Under the pieces are notes generated by a model that worked only from the letters and a program-made list of their open reading frames with translations, searched no databases and was not told the origin of the DNA. Source: an uncultured Bacteroidales bacterium (GTDB lineage Bacteria; Bacteroidota; Bacteroidia; Bacteroidales; FEN-979). Taken from it: 43,306 bases of DNA. The position numbers were made by a program, and so were the translations under genes. The stretch covers positions 1 through 43,306 of the forward strand of contig CAIYUC010000137.1 of the NCBI GenBank assembly GCA_903929315.1, written 5' to 3'. Below are positions 2-8,483 of the stretch, one piece after another (positions within the stretch are counted from its first letter, which is position 1; the number at the start of each line of letters is the position of its first letter).

Positions 2-2182
2 GGTGCAATCACAGTGACACCCGGCGGCGGTACACCTCCCTATACTTATCTTTGGAGCCCGGGCGGTATGACATCACAGAATCTGTCAGGTCTAACGGCC
101 AACGATTATATCCTGACCGTTACCGATGCACACGGATGTACCCGCGTGGGAGACAACTTTGTTACACAACCATCGCTGCCGCTTAATGTACAACTCACAG
201 TGACAAATATTCGCTGCTGGAATTACAATACAGGCGCCATCAATACTTCTGTAACAGGCGGTACCCCGGCATATACATACCATTGGGATAATGGCAACCT
301 CAATGCTAATCTCAGTAATCTTACTGCAGGTCAATACTGTGTTACCGTTACTGACGCTCATGGTTGCACCACCGTTAGCTGTGCCCAAATTACCCAGCCA
401 GATGAATGGCACCCATGCTTCAATAAATGTGCAGCGGTCTGCCAGGGTGATACGGTACAATACTGCGTTTGTAAAACCCTTGAAGGTGACTACCGCATTG
501 GTTACCGTAATGGTTATCTGAGTTCTTTCGAGTGGACCATTACAGGAGGAACACTCCTTTATGGATGTTGCGATACATGTATAACTGTTATCTGGAATCA
601 TTGCGCTACCGGTACGATCTGTGTTACAGAAATTCGTCATGATCCACCTTACGACGGATGTCGCTCCACTACCTGTTGTACCATTCAGCTCAATCCTGTT
701 CCGACACCTCTTATTACTGGTCCTCTTACGGTATGGGCCGATTCCACCAACACAACATATACCACGACATGGAGTTCATGTTACCTCTATTCCTGGAGTG
801 TTGTTGGCGGTACTGTAGTATCCGGACAAGGAACCAATTCAATAGAGGTACATTGGTCAGACTGCCAAAACTGCAGTTTAGGCACGGTTAAGGTTTGCGT
901 TACCGACGCTTGCCTACCGACACTTTGCTGCGGTTGTACATCTATCGATATAACCATTCTGGCTAAAAACAGTGCCAACCTGCAGGGTTATGTGACGTAT
1001 GCAAATGCAAATTCATCATATAACTTACCGCTGAATGGAGTGGTCATCCAATTGCTCAATTCCATGGGCAACGTTGTGGGTGTATCTACAACCGGTCCGA
1101 ATTTCGGAAATGGCTTGGGTACTCCTGGTTTCTACTCATTCTCCAATGTTCCGGCAGGTGCCTACACCATGCATATTACCTTCAATGGTACATGGGGTGG
1201 TGTCAATGCAACAGATGCTCTCCTCATTGAACTATATACAGTCAACCCAATTGGCCATCCGCTGGCCCCATTACCGCTCATGGCTGCTGATGTTACAGCA
1301 GATATGGTGGTGAATGCTACGGATGCTCTGTGGGTGAAACTGCGTACGGTTGGTATGCTTACTTACTTCCCGGCAGGTAACTGGGTGTTTAATAGTGGAA
1401 TCATTAACATCCCGTCCGTTGGAATCACTACCTACCCGATCGGAGCTCTTTGTTTCGGTGATGTAAATGCATCCTATATACCGCAAGGCATGAAGGAAGG
1501 TTCTTCCCTGAATGTCATCGACGATGGTATCATGAACATCCCTGTCAATGAATCATTCAACTATACTGTCAGGAGCAGCAAATCAGCTGAACTTGGCGCC
1601 ATGACCCTGTTCTTTGGTTATGACCAGAGCCGTTTCGAAGTTCAGAACGTAAGTACTTCGCTCGACGGTCTCAAGTATAAAGTTGATAATAGCCGGATCG
1701 CAGTGGCATGGTCTAACACCAAACCGCTTACTCTCAACAGTAACGATCCTATCCTTACCCTGCAACTGAAGGCCAAAGAAGCTATTTCTCAACCTTCACA
1801 GATATTCACGATCAATTCAGGCAGTGAAGTAGCTGATGCTACCGCAATGGTTCTGGATAACTTCGATCTGAAGATGTCAAGCGTTGTAACACTCAATGGC
1901 GGTAAGGAATTCTCAATATATAACTATCCGAACCCGTTCCAGAATACAACGGATATCGTGTACACAATACCCGAGCAGGGACATGTCAAATTGGTTGTTA
2001 CCAATATGTTTGGTACGGTTCTCAGTACCCTTGTCGATGCCGAACAGGTTGCCGGTTCTTACCAGGTGAAGGTAGATCCTTCCGTCATCAATCTGAATTC
2101 AGGTGTTTACCTGTACAAGATTGTCGTTGACGGCGTGACCACTTCATTCAATAAGACCAGCAAGATGTTGTTCACACGATAA
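2..2182 (+). CDS. SprB-repeat / dockerin-like / cohesin-like T9SS surface protein (5' partial)
   Basis: The reading frame is open from the left edge, so the N-terminus lies outside the window; the first in-window GTG is internal. Order of modules: two SprB-type repeats (about nt 2-390, each ending in VTDAHGC); a Cys-rich PKD-like region (about nt 410-960) with about 21 Cys; a carboxypeptidase-regulatory-like segment (about nt 970-1190); a dockerin-like pair of F-hand-type motifs (about nt 1196-1243 and 1283-1354, the second with a D-x-T-x-D...D calcium-loop pattern) followed by a GDVNAS motif; a cohesin-like domain (about nt 1557-1900); and a type A T9SS sorting domain (about nt 1910-2179, starting YNYPNPF). 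Such a protein would be exported by Sec, moved across the outer membrane by T9SS and anchored on the surface. An adhesin or scaffold role is inference. It is followed by a strong terminator. Confidence 0.85.
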   Translation, partial: GAITVTPGGGTPPYTYLWSPGGMTSQNLSGLTANDYILTVTDAHGCTRVGDNFVTQPSLPLNVQLTVTNIRCWNYNTGAINTSVTGGTPAYTYHWDNGNLNANLSNLTAGQYCVTVTDAHGCTTVSCAQITQPDEWHPCFNKCAAVCQGDTVQYCVCKTLEGDYRIGYRNGYLSSFEWTITGGTLLYGCCDTCITVIWNHCATGTICVTEIRHDPPYDGCRSTTCCTIQLNPVPTPLITGPLTVWADSTNTTYTTTWSSCYLYSWSVVGGTVVSGQGTNSIEVHWSDCQNCSLGTVKVCVTDACLPTLCCGCTSIDITILAKNSANLQGYVTYANANSSYNLPLNGVVIQLLNSMGNVVGVSTTGPNFGNGLGTPGFYSFSNVPAGAYTMHITFNGTWGGVNATDALLIELYTVNPIGHPLAPLPLMAADVTADMVVNATDALWVKLRTVGMLTYFPAGNWVFNSGIINIPSVGITTYPIGALCFGDVNASYIPQGMKEGSSLNVIDDGIMNIPVNESFNYTVRSSKSAELGAMTLFFGYDQSRFEVQNVSTSLDGLKYKVDNSRIAVAWSNTKPLTLNSNDPILTLQLKAKEAISQPSQIFTINSGSEVADATAMVLDNFDLKMSSVVTLNGGKEFSIYNYPNPFQNTTDIVYTIPEQGHVKLVVTNMFGTVLSTLVDAEQVAGSYQVKVDPSVINLNSGVYLYKIVVDGVTTSFNKTSKMLFTR

Positions 2183-2191
2183 ACTCGGACG

Positions 2192-2240
2192 ATGATAAGA
2201 AGGCGATAGTTTTCCTATCGCCTTCTTATCATTCTTTACT
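2192..2240 (+). terminator. Rho-independent terminator after the SprB-repeat gene
   Basis: A perfect 18-bp stem (2192-2209 with 2215-2232) encloses a 5-nt loop TTTTC and is followed by a short T-rich run. It begins 9 bases after the stop codon, so it separates this gene from the next secreted-protein gene. Confidence 0.85.
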
Positions 2241-2286
2241 AAAATCATTGAAAAAAAATCAAACCACTTCCACAATCATAAAAGAA

Positions 2287-3345
2287 ATGACCAGATTCTT
2301 CGTACTATTCTTCTTCATTCTCTTTTATACTGTTTCAATGTCGGCGCAGACAGCTACCCTTACCATCGGTACGGAACCTGTCTGCGCTGGACAGGAAGTG
2401 TTGATACCTGTAAATGCATTGAATTTAGGAAATGTTGGAGCGGTATCACTTCATATAAATTTTGATACCACTGCCCTTACTTATGTTTCTCTTGAAAACA
2501 TCAACCCGCAGCTTACAGGAATGAGCTATAACTATTCTTCAAATCCGCCGGAAATTTCTTTTGCCTGGAGTAATATCAATCCGGCTGATTTTCAACAGGC
2601 CAAATTTTTTGACATTCAATTTCACGTGATAACAATAAACACACCCATATTATTCAGGACCGGAAGCAACGGATGCGAGATCTCAAACGGATCCATTCCC
2701 CCACAGGTTATCACAACAAGTTTTGTGAACGGAGGGCTTTATCCCGGTATCCCCATGATAGTTTCTCAAACACAGGATACTACCGTGAAAGCAGGAATGA
2801 ACGCAATGTTTAATGTTATTTCGGATAATACAAATCAATATTATTGGAAGGAAAGCCACGATAACGGCATACACTGGACGGCTTTACAGGATGGCGGGAA
2901 ATATTCAGGAACACACAGCTACAGGCTGACCATTACACAAGTCCCCGCATCCTTTAATTTTTATAACTATGGTTGCACTCTGATACAATCACAATGCTCT
3001 ATACAATCGAATCCGTCGAAACTTACCATCGATTCCTTATTAGGCATTCAGGAGGTCATTCCACCGGATTTCACCCTGAATCAGAATCAACCCAATCCAT
3101 TTTCTGTTTCTACTTCAATTGAATATCGTTTACCCGAAATGGGAATTGTTAAAATAAAAATATTTGACAGTTTTGGAAAGCAGGTGTCAACCCTTGTAAA
3201 TGCTATACAATTCAAGGGTCGCCATAGCGTTGAACTGGATGCTGCAGAGTATCCTAATGGCCTGTATTTCTACGTTTTGGAATTTAAAAATAAAAATATT
3301 TTATACTATACGAGCTACAAGAAAATGGTCAAAACAAGTCTTTAA
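2287..3345 (+). CDS. Secreted cohesin-like domain protein with T9SS type A sorting domain
   Basis: 352 residues from the ATG at 2287, which directly precedes a good signal peptide (MTRFFVLFFF...SMSAQ). An in-frame TTG at 2248 would add 13 polar residues and is less likely. Residues about 22-150 form a cohesin-like beta-sandwich (alternating strands with an IPV start, FDTTALTYVS and FAWSN motifs, like its neighbours). Residues about 155-250 look Ig-like (W..S.D.GI.W.AL pattern). The last 92 residues are a type A sorting domain (NQPNPF, then a GLYFYVLE strand and a Lys-rich end). Family knowledge says such cargo is cleaved and attached on the cell surface. No enzyme domain is visible. Function unknown; surface assembly with the adjacent cohesin/dockerin proteins is inference. 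Confidence 0.8.
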   Translation: MTRFFVLFFFILFYTVSMSAQTATLTIGTEPVCAGQEVLIPVNALNLGNVGAVSLHINFDTTALTYVSLENINPQLTGMSYNYSSNPPEISFAWSNINPADFQQAKFFDIQFHVITINTPILFRTGSNGCEISNGSIPPQVITTSFVNGGLYPGIPMIVSQTQDTTVKAGMNAMFNVISDNTNQYYWKESHDNGIHWTALQDGGKYSGTHSYRLTITQVPASFNFYNYGCTLIQSQCSIQSNPSKLTIDSLLGIQEVIPPDFTLNQNQPNPFSVSTSIEYRLPEMGIVKIKIFDSFGKQVSTLVNAIQFKGRHSVELDAAEYPNGLYFYVLEFKNKNILYYTSYKKMVKTSL

Positions 3346-3412
3346 AATTGCAAATAAGTAAACAAACATATACGAAACATTAAAAATATTTATAACTTTA
3401 CACCAGAAAATC

Positions 3413-5563
3413 ATGAGAAAGCAATTTACTTTTATAACGATCTTGATATTGATCTGCGGATCAATGTCATTTGGACAACAAACAGGCTCACTTACTACGG
3501 TTATTGCCAGCCCGGGAGAATCTGTCAGTATTCCAATGACAGTCGGCGGCGGCTGGAATAGTATAAGTGCCATTAGTATGTACATTTCGTTTACAAAAAA
3601 TGTGCTTACATTTTCCGGAGTTAGCGGAGTTGTTCCTGCACTGAACGGTTATCTAGCTGATGTTGATACGGCGACGTCTACGGTACATTTCGTGTGGGAT
3701 AAAACAACAACCGCGAATTTATCCGGAATCATTTTCTATCTTAACTTTGTATATAATGGAGCAACTTCCAGTCCTTTGCATTTCCTTCCAACATGTGATA
3801 TTGAAACCGGTCTTCTCCCTCCAACACGTATTTATCCGACGTGGACAGATGGTGCCGTGAATCCTAAAACAAATAACGCTCAGACCGCCACTATCGGTGG
3901 TATTCTCACTGCATCAACAGGCTCCCCTGTTACAGTTCCGCTGATGTTTGGAGGGTTCGGCGCTTATGGAAGCAATGTCGGATCAATAACCCAAAAGATC
4001 CATTACGATGTTACGAAGCTTTCTTTTGCCGGTATCACAACCTCGGGTAACCTGAGCGGCGCTATGGCATATGCCAGCAACGGGCTGATTACGATCACAT
4101 GGACCAGCACAACCGGGAAAAATATAGACTTTCCTGCGAACCAGCTCAATTTGATTTTTGGTTATAACGGAATTACCGCTACTACTTTAGAGTTTTATCC
4201 ATACTGTATTATTACCACCAATCTCGGTGTAAATATCCCGGTTAGTTATGTTAACGGAACAATAAGCCCGGGACCATCGGTTGGCACTGCAGTGCTCGGA
4301 AATGTGACAGGCGCCCTTCAGGGACATGATTACCTGGTTCCCCTTACCCTCGCAACTCTTCCGGGTGTTTCATCCATGACACTGAATATTATTTACGACA
4401 ATCCCAGGTTGTCATTTATTAAAGATACAAACGAAATGAAACCTGGATCAACAGTTGTAAATGCACATGGTGATACTATTTCCATTCTTTATACTAATGG
4501 CAGTTCACTTCCCATAAACGGGATCTTCCTGAATCTGAAATTCCATTATGGCGGTATAGGAGTTGCAAATGTCATGTTCGGCCCCGGTTGCCTGTTTACG
4601 GATAATTCATTTAACCCCGTGCAGACTGCTTATACCAATGCGACAATTACTCCTGCAATAGTCACTCCCAATGCAAATATAGAATACGTTGAGACAACAC
4701 CCGGATCAGATATTCTGGTACCCATTGACTTTTCATTGCTTCCTACGAATATCGGAGCCGTTACAATGAATATCCTCTTTGACCAGAGCAAACTGAATTT
4801 CGTTGATGCCATCGGGGCGAATAATCCTTTCGGAGCTACCGTTTGGTCTCCTTCAGCGGGTAAGGTCAACGTCACATGGGCTTCTGTGACTGCAACAAAT
4901 ATCAACGGCACCTTCCTGAAACTTAGATTTCATTACCTTGGTGGCGGCGCTGCATCCGTAGCATTTACCGACGGCTGCGAAGTTGCAAATATAGCTGCAG
5001 TTATTGTCCCTGTGAACTGGATTAATGGGGGAGTGAATATTCATTTTAAACTCAGTGGGTTCCTTACCTATGACAGTTCTCCAAACCCGGTCTTAGCCCT
5101 GGGTGGTGTTACAGTTTATCTTAAAGATATCGCTGAACCACTTCCACCCGCAATTGGTCCTATACCAACCATACTTTATACTACTACGACAGATGTAACA
5201 GGTTATTTTGAATTTTTTGTTCCTAACGGTACTTATTATATATATGCAGCAAGCTCTGCTGCATGGGCTGGGGCTGATGGTGCTGATGTGACGAATATCA
5301 GGAGATATATTGCCTTATTATCCAATTCAATCGATTCTGATGTATTACGTCAGCATGCGGCAGATGTTAATCAGGATGGAAATATTGATGGAAGCGATGT
5401 TACAGTATTACGCCGTAGAATAGCAAATCTGACCCCTAATCCTAACTATTTGGCCCCTGACTGGTTGTTTGAGAATCCGGGCGTGACGATCAGCGCTGCT
5501 GATGCGACCCAGAATTTCATGGGAACTTGTTCGGGGGATGTTAATGGATCATACCCATTCTGA
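3413..5563 (+). CDS. Secreted protein with four cohesin-like repeats and a C-terminal dockerin-like module
   Basis: 716 residues. A signal peptide covers about 1-21. Four tandem cohesin-like repeats follow at roughly 22-150, 155-290, 292-420 and 425-545; each has a VP or IP strand, an M.I.FD/T..L.F strand and a W-containing strand. Residues about 550-630 are a carboxypeptidase-regulatory-like segment, then a dockerin-like pair: a first motif with a degenerate loop (GADVTNIRRYIALL) and a second canonical loop (DVNQDGNIDGSDVTVLRRR). The chain ends with GDVNGSYPF. The same C-terminal module is internal in the protein at 2-2182. There is no T9SS sorting domain, so surface retention may depend on partner binding. 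It resembles a small scaffoldin in layout, but binding between these modules is inference. No catalytic domain is seen. Confidence 0.8.
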   Translation: MRKQFTFITILILICGSMSFGQQTGSLTTVIASPGESVSIPMTVGGGWNSISAISMYISFTKNVLTFSGVSGVVPALNGYLADVDTATSTVHFVWDKTTTANLSGIIFYLNFVYNGATSSPLHFLPTCDIETGLLPPTRIYPTWTDGAVNPKTNNAQTATIGGILTASTGSPVTVPLMFGGFGAYGSNVGSITQKIHYDVTKLSFAGITTSGNLSGAMAYASNGLITITWTSTTGKNIDFPANQLNLIFGYNGITATTLEFYPYCIITTNLGVNIPVSYVNGTISPGPSVGTAVLGNVTGALQGHDYLVPLTLATLPGVSSMTLNIIYDNPRLSFIKDTNEMKPGSTVVNAHGDTISILYTNGSSLPINGIFLNLKFHYGGIGVANVMFGPGCLFTDNSFNPVQTAYTNATITPAIVTPNANIEYVETTPGSDILVPIDFSLLPTNIGAVTMNILFDQSKLNFVDAIGANNPFGATVWSPSAGKVNVTWASVTATNINGTFLKLRFHYLGGGAASVAFTDGCEVANIAAVIVPVNWINGGVNIHFKLSGFLTYDSSPNPVLALGGVTVYLKDIAEPLPPAIGPIPTILYTTTTDVTGYFEFFVPNGTYYIYAASSAAWAGADGADVTNIRRYIALLSNSIDSDVLRQHAADVNQDGNIDGSDVTVLRRRIANLTPNPNYLAPDWLFENPGVTISAADATQNFMGTCSGDVNGSYPF

Positions 5564-5618
5564 TTTTAATGACATATAATATAAATAAAATAACTTTTAA
5601 CAAATAAAAACAGTCAAT

Positions 5619-7670
5619 ATGAAAAGACGATATATCTCATTAGTCAAAGGATTGCTTGTATTATTTATAGGTATGAGCAGTGTTTTAGCATTTGCTGCCG
5701 GATCTTCAGCAACTTTACAACCCAATCGAACAGGGCTTAACGTGAATGATACGATCCATGTCCCTATTCATCTTACAGGGGTTGACATTTTTAATATGGC
5801 ATTTTATATCATCTATAATCATAACGTGCTTACCCCGATTACACCAGGATATACCTTAAACCCAGCTTACCTGGGAGTATTTTCCGTTACCGGGTATTCT
5901 GCAACCTATAATGATTCTACTCTGTTCATTGGAATTGATGCTGTTGGTTTTACAGGCACGGATTTTACAGGTCAAAAAATTGTCGATTTGCTTTTTACAT
6001 TTAAAGGGGGTCAGACAAACTTACACATCAGAAAATCTCCCGAACCTGGAACTCCTCCTTATTCCAACATTTGGGATGATCTTGCTGGCAAGATATTACC
6101 CTATACCTTTACTGACGCTTCAGTAGGCGGCGCTATTCATTCCGCCAATACAGGCGGCGCCTGGAATGCTACCGGTTCATGGGAAGTTGCCTGTGTGCCG
6201 AATAACCTCTGCGATGTTTATATCACCAGAACCAATCCTGTAACCATTACAGCGAATGCAACTGCCAAAACATTGACGATCAATTCCGGAGGCCAGCTTA
6301 CGTTGAATGCCAGCACTACTCTGAATGTTACCGGCAATTTCAGCATCCTCGATAACGGAACGAACGGTTCCGGCTCTTATGTTGATTTCGGTACAACAAC
6401 GATCGGGGGAACTTGTTCGGTACAAAGGTACATGAACGGTAACTGGATAAGTGGCAAACCTACAGGGTCCACAATATGGCATTATATTTCATCCCCGGTA
6501 GCATCAGGAACCATTAATACTTTCTTAGGTGATTTGCTGAATAAATGGAATGAACCCCTGGAACAATGGGACTCATTAGTTCTACCATTATCCATACCTT
6601 TAACGGTAGGTAAAGGATTTGCTGCCGCCCCCCGTACTCCCGGAGGCACCAAGACTTTTACAGGCGGCACCTTAAATACCGGTGATCTCACTGTTTCCGG
6701 CCTGACTTACACTGCAGGAACGTATGCAGGATATAACCTTATCGGGAATATTTATCCTTCAGCATTATTGTGGGATGGCTCATGGTCAAAAACAAATGTC
6801 GACGGCAGTGCCTGGGTGTGGGATAATACTGTTGGTCATTATTGGGTAAATAACGGAGGCACCGGTACCGGATCTTTTGGAACAAATGGTATCATCCCTC
6901 CGGAACAAGGGTTCTTTGTTCATGTTACTGCAGCCGGAACAGCTTCTATAACCATTCCCAACGCCAAACGCCAGCATTCGACACAAGATTTTTATAAACA
7001 GGATATTGCTGATTTTATCAACCTGAAACTGGAAGGCAATAATGGTTATGACGAAGCCGTGATCTATTTTGATCCCAATGCCACTACCGGTTATGACCCT
7101 GAACTTGACGCTTATAAATTATTTGGCGGGTCAAGTGCAACAGAAATTTATTCTGTGATCGTGGGTAATACGAATGCATCCATTAATGTGTTACCTGGTT
7201 ACCAGGGATCCACGGTGATTCCGGTTGGGATCAAGACAGGCGCAACAGGTACTTATACATTAACAGCTTCAAAACTGGAGAGTTTCGCCAGTGGAACTTC
7301 TGTTTACCTTGAAGATCTGCTGACCACTAATCATACTACTGTTAAGTTGAATGATAATCCTGTTTATACGTTCACATCGGATGCAGTGAATACTGTACGG
7401 TTCAACCTGCACTTTGCCCCGGTGGGAATTCCTGAAATTGGTTCAAATAAAATCAATATCTACTCAAACCTTAAGGATGTTTATGTGAATATACCGGTTT
7501 CAATGCATGGTAATATTTTTGTTTACAACCTTTTGGGAAGTGAAATTACAAATCAGGTTATCGAGGGGAATACCCTTAACAGGATCAGCCTGAACAGCCC
7601 CACCGGGTACTATATTGTAAAAGTCATCGGTGATAATGGAATAACGACGGGTAAAGTCTTTATTCAGTAA
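5619..7670 (+). CDS. Secreted cohesin-like protein with T9SS type A sorting domain
   Basis: 683 residues. A signal peptide (about 1-27) is followed by a cohesin-like domain (about 28-170, degenerate compared with its neighbours). Residues about 175-245 are Asn/Thr-rich beta repeats resembling the short beta-helical stretches of Bacteroidota surface proteins (VTITANATAKTLTINSGGQL). The middle has the SSP and YNLIGNIYPS-type motifs common in large T9SS cargo proteins. The last 70 or so residues form a type A sorting domain ending GITTGKVFIQ. It starts 55 nt after the preceding gene and 43 nt before the PID-CTERM-like gene, with no clear terminator until 7970, so it may belong to one transcript with them. 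Function unknown. Confidence 0.8.
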   Translation: MKRRYISLVKGLLVLFIGMSSVLAFAAGSSATLQPNRTGLNVNDTIHVPIHLTGVDIFNMAFYIIYNHNVLTPITPGYTLNPAYLGVFSVTGYSATYNDSTLFIGIDAVGFTGTDFTGQKIVDLLFTFKGGQTNLHIRKSPEPGTPPYSNIWDDLAGKILPYTFTDASVGGAIHSANTGGAWNATGSWEVACVPNNLCDVYITRTNPVTITANATAKTLTINSGGQLTLNASTTLNVTGNFSILDNGTNGSGSYVDFGTTTIGGTCSVQRYMNGNWISGKPTGSTIWHYISSPVASGTINTFLGDLLNKWNEPLEQWDSLVLPLSIPLTVGKGFAAAPRTPGGTKTFTGGTLNTGDLTVSGLTYTAGTYAGYNLIGNIYPSALLWDGSWSKTNVDGSAWVWDNTVGHYWVNNGGTGTGSFGTNGIIPPEQGFFVHVTAAGTASITIPNAKRQHSTQDFYKQDIADFINLKLEGNNGYDEAVIYFDPNATTGYDPELDAYKLFGGSSATEIYSVIVGNTNASINVLPGYQGSTVIPVGIKTGATGTYTLTASKLESFASGTSVYLEDLLTTNHTTVKLNDNPVYTFTSDAVNTVRFNLHFAPVGIPEIGSNKINIYSNLKDVYVNIPVSMHGNIFVYNLLGSEITNQVIEGNTLNRISLNSPTGYYIVKVIGDNGITTGKVFIQ

Positions 7671-7713
7671 AAAGGATTTCCAAACATTGTTGAATGAAAT
7701 TAAACGATACTAT

Positions 7714-7932
7714 ATGAAAAAAATAAGATCCGTTTTTCTTATCACAATGCTCCTGGGGCTGCCTCTTCTGAACTTTGCCCAACCTCTTCCCAGCCAGAAC
7801 GGGAATGGGTCACATGTCGGGCAAACTCCGGTCGGCGCTCCCATTGACGGCGGCCTGAGCATTCTTCTGCTCCTGGGTGCCGGATACGGCGTTAAGAAAA
7901 TTTATAATCTGAAGAAAGCAGAAAAGGAATAA
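7714..7932 (+). CDS. Small PID-CTERM-type sorting-signal protein
   Basis: 72 residues from the ATG at 7714 (MKKIRSVFLI...); an upstream in-frame TTG at 7687 would precede the signal peptide by 9 residues and is less likely. Layout: signal peptide (about 1-22), a short Asn/Gly/Pro spacer, then a C-terminal tripartite signal with the motif PIDGG, a short hydrophobic segment (LSILLLLGAGYGV) and a basic tail (KKIYNLKKAEKE). This matches the PID-CTERM class of predicted Bacteroidota protein-sorting signals. Almost nothing lies between the two signals, so the mature product would be a peptide of about 25-30 residues, or the protein acts as a membrane-tethered small protein. The processing enzyme is not in this window. 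The gene ends before a strong terminator. Confidence 0.75.
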   Translation: MKKIRSVFLITMLLGLPLLNFAQPLPSQNGNGSHVGQTPVGAPIDGGLSILLLLGAGYGVKKIYNLKKAEKE

Positions 7933-8030: not shown

Positions 8031-8483
8031 ATGAAAATGAAAAAATCAATTCTTATAGTAGCCATCTTGATCATGGCTGTAATTGTCAGTGCCCAGGAAA
8101 TACCCGCAAAATCCGTACCTGCGCAAGTACAGGGTGCAATTAAAAACGTCTTCCCTGAACTGATTAGTGGAAAAATACCGGTGAAATGGGAAAGAGACGG
8201 AATAAACTACAAAGCATCAATTTATATATCAACTCCTTCTGCCGCTTTTATAGTGCTGGATTCACTGGCACACGTTCTGCTGGTCGAAAGAAGAGTCAGT
8301 CCTGGTTCATTACCGCCGAAAGCTGTGGAATACTTGAAATCACAATACCATCAAATTGAAATGGAAATCTCAGAGGTTTATATGGTAACAACCAAAGATA
8401 AAAATTCCTACCGCACAAAATTAATAGTAAAACCAGTATACCTATTTGATTCCAAAGGAGAACTCATCAAACCTGGTAACTAA
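8031..8483 (+). CDS. Secreted PepSY-like domain protein
   Basis: 150 residues with an N-terminal signal peptide (about 1-22, ending VSAQ). The mature part resembles the PepSY-like / BLIP-like proteins common in Bacteroidota: an AVQ/AIKNVFPE-type helix, W.R.G..Y.A.. strand, then a second helix (PPKAVEYLKSQY) and beta strands. Start at 8031 (MKMKKS); the ATG at 8037 is an equally possible start. It sits just after a terminator and has an AT-rich upstream region, so it probably has its own promoter. Members of this family are small periplasmic or surface proteins of unknown exact role. The function here is not known. Confidence 0.65.
   Translation: MKMKKSILIVAILIMAVIVSAQEIPAKSVPAQVQGAIKNVFPELISGKIPVKWERDGINYKASIYISTPSAAFIVLDSLAHVLLVERRVSPGSLPPKAVEYLKSQYHQIEMEISEVYMVTTKDKNSYRTKLIVKPVYLFDSKGELIKPGN

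Follow-up and report, generated by a model that had tools for sequence, protein, structure and literature searches.

A putative T9SS-anchored cohesin–dockerin assembly with a split-loop dockerin in an uncultured Bacteroidales bacterium

Four neighbouring genes of an uncultured Bacteroidales bacterium encode proteins, here called P1 to P4, that combine cohesin domains with a dockerin of apparently permuted form, in which calcium loop 1 would be assembled from both ends of the module. The four proteins probably belong to a surface assembly held together by cohesin–dockerin contacts, with P3 as adaptor scaffold and P1, P2 and P4 anchored via T9SS. The cluster is best read as a non-cellulosomal surface assembly, because cohesins and the dockerin-containing module (X-Doc, an X-like domain plus dockerin) co-occur among genomes and share a conserved cluster.

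Organization of the gene cluster

The window spans contig C137 in full (43,306 nucleotides), part of a 4.3-Mb draft genome. Its features are listed in Table 1; the coordinates of the four genes are those of an earlier note on this DNA and proved correct. P1 is open at the contig edge and thus truncated, and an in-frame TTG at 2248 is a possible alternative start of P2. The hairpin downstream of P1 probably marks the end of a transcript; as it separates P1 from P2, P1 may be transcribed separately. No cluster component was detected between 7670 and 7932. The PepSY-like protein encoded beyond this interval is a doubtful member of the system. A 144-aa open reading frame occupies the position of its gene in three related loci (L020, L022 and L023).

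Table 1. Features of the P1–P4 cluster and its downstream neighbour
Feature	Position	Strand	Description	Basis
P1	2..2182	+	SprB repeats – X-like domain – putative split-loop dockerin – cohesin-like domain – T9SS type A sorting domain	Pfam, TIGR04183
P1 X-Doc	977..1483	+	carboxypeptidase-regulatory/CnaB-like domain and dockerin	
P1 putative calcium loop 1, second half, and helix 1	1196..1234	+	GGVNATDALLIEL	
P1 putative calcium loop 2, continuous	1286..1342	+	ADVTADMVVNATDALWVKL	
P1 putative calcium loop 1, first half	1454..1474	+	FGDVNAS	
P1 cohesin-like domain	1544..1855	+	between dockerin and sorting domain	structure search, hhalign
P1 sorting domain	1922..2167	+	T9SS type A	
Hairpin	2191..2233	+	19 bp, between P1 and P2	z -7.2; absent from terminator scan list
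P2	2287..3345	+	signal peptide – cohesin – Ig-like – T9SS sorting domain	Pfam, TIGR04183
P2 cohesin	2362..2736	+		Pfam
P3	3413..5563	+	signal peptide – four cohesins – terminal X-Doc, no T9SS sorting domain	
P3 cohesins	3491..5035	+	four in tandem (3491-3859, 3905-4264, 4295-4648, 4679-5035)	Pfam; fourth also structure comparison
P3 X-Doc	5048..5560	+	terminal	
P3 putative calcium loop 1, second half, and helix 1	5267..5305	+	AGADGADVTNIRR	
P3 putative calcium loop 2, continuous	5360..5416	+	ADVNQDGNIDGSDVTVLRR	
P3 putative calcium loop 1, first half	5531..5551	+	SGDVNGS	
P4	5619..7670	+	signal peptide – divergent cohesin-like domain – long middle – T9SS sorting domain	hhalign, TIGR04183
P4 cohesin-like domain	5739..6125	+	divergent, N-terminal	hhalign to cohesin profile 97.9%, E 4.5e-13
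PepSY-like protein	8031..8483	+	small, secreted, after P4	Pfam

Cohesins and sorting domains

The Pfam cohesin family (PF00963, cut-off 24.1 bits) is found in P2 (28.3 bits) and over four stretches of P3 (84.5 bits), and Dockerin_1 (type I, PF00404, cut-off 22.9 bits) in P1 (25.1 bits) and P3 (26.9 bits). The cohesin-like domains of P1 and P4 lie below Pfam cohesin detection. The modelled P1 domain resembles known cohesin structures (best Foldseek E 5e-5; VIA Z 10.7 with 113 aligned and rmsd 2.7), and hhalign links the domain to the cluster's own cohesins (95%). The fourth cohesin of P3 shows the jelly-roll cohesin fold (Z 10.9, 122 aligned, rmsd 2.8), also by Foldseek. With five domains from Pfam (one in P2, four in P3) and those of P1 and P4 from structure and profile comparison, the count of at least seven cohesin-like domains made in the earlier note holds at seven. 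The Pfam search that it had proposed thus places both families above their cut-offs, and the lack of a cohesin fold that would have spoken against it was not found in P1 or in the fourth domain of P3. Its statement that no glycoside hydrolase domain is visible agrees with Pfam, by which neither glycoside hydrolase nor CBM families were found in P1–P4. A cellulosome was rejected as the identity of the cluster for this reason.

The T9SS type A sorting domain (TIGR04183, cut-off 23 bits) is present in P1 (32.0 bits), P2 (26.9 bits) and P4 (23.5 bits). The genome also encodes the T9SS pore SprA (SprA_N, E 3e-166), the T9SS component that was searched. TIGR04183 has no match in P3, and the P3 orthologues in L020, L022 and L023 likewise end at the X-Doc. 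The earlier suggestion of delivery by T9SS is therefore supported for P1, P2 and P4, but not for P3.

Conservation and co-occurrence in related genomes

A search with P3 identified relatives among metagenome-assembled Bacteroidales/Bacteroidetes genomes, one of which comes from Lake Pavin. The order P1-P2-P3-P4 is conserved in L020, in L022 (with two extra genes) and in L023 (with one), and recurs in other families, in full in L067 and L068, where the X-Doc of the first protein of L067 is not recognised, and partially in L059, L066 and L072. The regions with recurrence were picked for holding both modules, so they show that the order recurs and not at what rate. Conservation in relatives, which had been proposed as a check on the surface-assembly reading, is thus found, also in other families of the order.

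A survey of 295 genomes of the order showed that many Bacteroidales carry cohesin and dockerin modules, and not as cellulosomes. X-Docs occur in 80 genomes, cohesins in 73 and both in 51 (p 1e-19); by family (approximately 120 families), the counts are 51 with X-Docs, 50 with cohesins and 37 with both (p 3e-9). Strong X-Docs are accompanied by Pfam cohesins in 34 of 35 genomes. Kinship between genomes inflates these figures, among which the family count is the safer. The genome of the window itself has six X-Docs, three strong and three weak, and about 20 cohesins in total, so most of its cohesin sockets would have no partner of the X-Doc kind, which counts against the assembly proposed below.

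Architecture of X-Doc proteins

The 4.1-Mb genome of the relative G094 contains 99 X-Doc matches, corresponding to about 96 modules, and 30 Pfam cohesin matches. In this genome, 35 modules are located at the extreme C terminus of proteins without a sorting domain, most of which start with an apparent signal peptide, as judged by eye. About 45 other modules are followed by approximately 230 residues, comprising a cohesin-like domain and the sorting domain, so that their distance to the protein end is near-constant. For 17 G094 proteins the profile detects no cohesin in the stretch that separates X-Doc from sorting domain; hhalign of a joint alignment (98.7%) identifies this stretch as a divergent cohesin, with the exception of one fragment that has only 42 residues there. 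In a smaller set, the X-Doc is near the N terminus and another domain follows. Seven G094 loci (L136, L109, L130, L122, L142, L126 and L167) encode proteins of this shape with a C-terminal domain that ends in SVRC(V/I/L) and presumably resembles the FISUMP paralogous domain. Two small G094 proteins (L123:2323-2940, 205 aa; L123:3040-3597, 185 aa) consist of little beyond a signal peptide and an X-Doc, and are possible free plugs or caps.

The adjacency of X-Doc and cohesin at this near-constant distance from the protein end, in about 45 proteins of G094, would suit an intramolecular arrangement, in which the dockerin packs on the adjacent cohesin of its own chain to form a rigid stalk by the sorting domain, the tandem cohesins are mere spacers and no network exists. 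The same can be said of three minimal proteins of about 400 aa (L095:955-2184, L096:1202-2440 and L097:1297-2490), which consist of signal peptide, X-Doc, cohesin-like domain and T9SS sorting domain; the profile recognises the cohesin-like domain only in L095. Two of them come from genomes in which Pfam finds no cohesin at the threshold used (L095, genome G231; L097, genome G134), and so would fit either an internal pair or self-assembling head-to-tail fibres. However, 31 of the 35 proteins with a terminal module in G094 have no recognised cohesin of their own, the dockerin of P3 sits after four cohesins and lacks a sorting domain behind it, and Pfam cohesins are present in nearly all genomes with strong modules. 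The terminal modules in cohesin-free proteins and the dockerin of P3 therefore need a partner elsewhere, and an exclusively intramolecular role is unlikely.

Cohesin-fold domains are common as spacer-like repeats of surface proteins, and the fold search with the P3 cohesin model also returns integrin, pilin and adhesin domains. Cohesin- and dockerin-like domains might accordingly be stable building blocks of adhesins, like Ig, PKD and SprB repeats, with calcium loops that stabilise the X domain and no cohesin binding. The 29 genomes that have an X-Doc but no Pfam cohesin above the chosen threshold, and the 22 with the reverse, are compatible with such independent use, but it leaves unexplained why strong X-Docs are nearly always accompanied by cohesins and why both families share one conserved cluster. 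Moreover, many otherwise unrelated proteins, enzymes among them, end in an X-Doc, which matches the expectation for a plug: examples in G094 are a C25 peptidase, two heparinase-like proteins, a purple acid phosphatase and laminin-G and kelch proteins. A purely structural role is thus quite improbable. M14 carboxypeptidases with an X-Doc occur in G094, where approximately 40 residues lie beyond the module, and in G116. The dockerin proteins scanned in G094 include heparinase-like families and peptidases and are not a cellulase set.

The apparent split-loop dockerin

The earlier note had recognised a shared carboxypeptidase-regulatory-like and dockerin module in two of the proteins; it indeed ends in GDVNAS in P1 and in GDVNGS in P3, where the last residues of the protein are GDVNGSYPF. 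The second half of loop 1, GGVNATD, comes after the carboxypeptidase-regulatory-like domain, and the first half, GDVNGS, follows approximately 85 residues on, at the end of the module. Pfam alignments to full X-Docs begin no earlier than profile position 8, so that the initial half of loop 1 is absent from them. Set in front, the hexapeptide gives GDVNGS-GG-VNATDAL, which resembles loop 2 where it is intact in many sister modules, such as ADVNAS-GT-VNATDAL in L031. As a point against the proposed reading, loop 2 of P1 has T for the usual N at ligand position 3 and M for the usual G. Two continuous tandem calcium loops, as in type I dockerins (PF00404), were not found, since only loop 2 is continuous; with loop 1 split between the module ends, the module is classed as a permuted variant and not as a standard type I dockerin.

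In a rotation test, the C-terminal hexapeptide was moved to the front of the module, which was then rescored with the Pfam dockerin profile. The score rose by 9–18 bits in nine of nine modules, and coverage started at profile position 1–2 instead of 8–13. P1 rose from 29.4 to 42.8 bits (30.6 with a scrambled hexapeptide) and P3 from 29.9 to 38.9 bits (32.2 when scrambled), so that the scrambled controls, tried on these two modules, gained 1.2 and 2.3 bits. Similar gains were seen for a module of G110 (31.8 to 45.8 bits), one on contig C201 (30.1 to 43.8) and five from other genomes (37.5 to 55.5, 17.3 to 27.4, 28.9 to 42.1, 20.5 to 35.4 and 31.6 to 43.3 bits).

Among 139 modules, which are mainly from the single genome G094 and hence not independent, conservation is highest at the C-terminal G and D (99% each), at D12 in the N-terminal half (99%) and in loop 2 (99%), and at a tryptophan (96%). 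The loss of the calcium-loop pattern in relatives, which would have counted against the earlier note, is thus not seen. D12 of the N-terminal half is lost in only two modules, both of which also lack a ligand of the C-terminal half and keep loop 2 intact (chance 0.001, on small numbers). Distantly related families of the phylum show the same split arrangement. The alternative of a conventional dockerin whose divergent first half-loop lies immediately upstream was rejected, because the residues ahead of the half-loop, commonly T-K-P-W at the end of the X domain, contain no D-x-N-x-D/S, whereas the C-terminal GD is nearly invariant.

Two AlphaFold models were obtained from alignments of 8 and 7 rows, with pLDDT 57 and 53; owing to their modest confidence, neither closure of the loop nor a contact between cohesin and dockerin is visible in three dimensions. 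In the P3 model (pLDDT 57), CnaB-type structures align over residues 129–299 with 82–90 residues matched. A match of this span indicates that the X domain is made of strands before and after the dockerin helices, so that its C-terminal strand would return beside the start of the dockerin. A CnaB-like wrap by this strand, whose residues are modelled at low confidence, is consistent with loop closure and does not prove it.

From sequence, the dockerin therefore appears to be a permuted form whose calcium loop 1 is assembled from both module ends: the C-terminal GDVN(G/A)S would join the N-terminal (GG)VNATD and close the loop, with the dockerin embedded in the CnaB-like domain. That it is instead an ordinary dockerin with a degenerate first half-loop and an unrelated C-terminal GDVNGS motif is very improbable: this would explain why the first half of loop 1 is missing at its usual place and why no confident structure has the halves together, but not why the far-end GD is as conserved as the other loop ligands, why rotation raises every score, why the two halves are lost jointly or why distant families share the arrangement. 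Searches of the open-access literature turned up no description of a dockerin that is permuted or has a split loop, and by that literature the form is apparently unreported.

Proposed assembly

In the proposed assembly, P1, P2 and P4 would be exported and anchored via T9SS, exposing cohesin sockets at the cell surface. P3 would attach through its dockerin to a cohesin on one of the anchored proteins, and its four cohesins would capture dockerins on further surface proteins, for example P1 and the 2684-aa SprB protein encoded on contig C201. Giant adhesins would in this way be cross-linked to form a coat or fibre. P3 is the only clear plug without a sorting domain in its genome and has four sockets of its own, and thus looks like an adaptor linking giant SprB-type proteins. 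The modules presumably bind calcium, and cohesin–dockerin pairing and its specificity are likewise predicted, as are the crossing of the outer membrane by P3 and a function as coat or fibre. The earlier note had proposed a non-cellulosomal surface assembly of mutually binding modules; co-occurrence and the conserved cluster make this the best reading, while pairing keeps the inferred status that it had there, and the split loop had escaped that note.

More speculatively, dockerin-tagged proteins without a sorting domain (P3 and the 35 of G094) might bind carriers with a cohesin and a sorting domain in the periplasm and cross the T9SS pore together with them, so that such carriers and the X-Doc would form a two-part sorting system replacing a sorting domain on each cargo. 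We regard this as rather unlikely; no paper on such hitchhiking through T9SS was found in the open-access literature.

If the proposed assembly is correct, Bacteroidota possess a family of cohesin–dockerin surface assemblies with a permuted dockerin and T9SS anchoring, with about 96 dockerins in one species. This would explain the possible surface attachment of proteins without a sorting domain and add a new class of protein pairs, possibly switchable by calcium. It would also show that a well-known binding module can accommodate an interruption of its first calcium loop.

Relation to known systems

Cohesin- and dockerin-like modules reportedly occur outside cellulosomes in all three domains of life, according to the title of a 2009 paper by Peer et al. 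to which the Cloacimonadota and planctosome papers refer. The cluster shares with the clostridial cellulosome the tandem cohesins in a non-catalytic protein ending in an X-dockerin, the separate cohesin-bearing anchoring proteins and the two calcium loops per dockerin. In contrast to it, P1–P4 contain no glycoside hydrolase and carry T9SS sorting domains, loop 1 of the dockerin is split and permuted, and the X domain is CnaB/carboxypeptidase-regulatory-like. P1 resembles SprB and other T9SS adhesins in its SprB repeats and sorting domain, but has an X-Doc and a cohesin-like domain ahead of the latter.

The closest system in idea is the cellulosome-like complex proposed for Candidatus Stygibacter (Cloacimonadota), in which cohesin–dockerin contacts are combined with T9SS anchoring (PMC8542988). 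It likewise has dockerin-tagged enzymes with signal peptides, including a C25 gingipain-like peptidase, and a cohesin scaffold with a C-terminal surface-attachment domain; it differs in phylum and in a scaffold with CBM2/CBM3 (PMC8542988). The passages of that paper considered here make no mention of a split-loop dockerin, an X-Doc–cohesin–sorting-domain unit or a conserved four-gene cluster (PMC8542988). Cohesin–dockerin complexes with T9SS anchoring had thus, by that description, already been proposed, and the present system is a variant with a permuted dockerin.

The planctosome, a peptidase-bearing complex proposed for freshwater Planctomycetes, is similar in its non-cellulosomal cohesin–dockerin adaptor, its dockerin-bearing M14 peptidases and its occurrence in lake bacteria (PMC6461901). 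It differs in being anchored by lamin-tail domains instead of T9SS, in comprising few proteins and in that no SprB proteins are described (PMC6461901).

Further cohesin-like proteins

A second cohesin cluster of the same genome lies on contig C101 (L013, L014). It encodes two similar four-cohesin PKD proteins of 834 and 839 aa and three similar cohesin proteins of 662–663 aa with sorting domains, PKD_6 being shown in two of these. One X-Doc of the C101 cluster keeps both halves of loop 1 and has lost loop 2. Among structures matching the P3 cohesin model is the "CLIPPER" domain of a Gram-negative fibrillar adhesin (PDB 9ifr, Z 9.2), which, from this match, may be cohesin-like.
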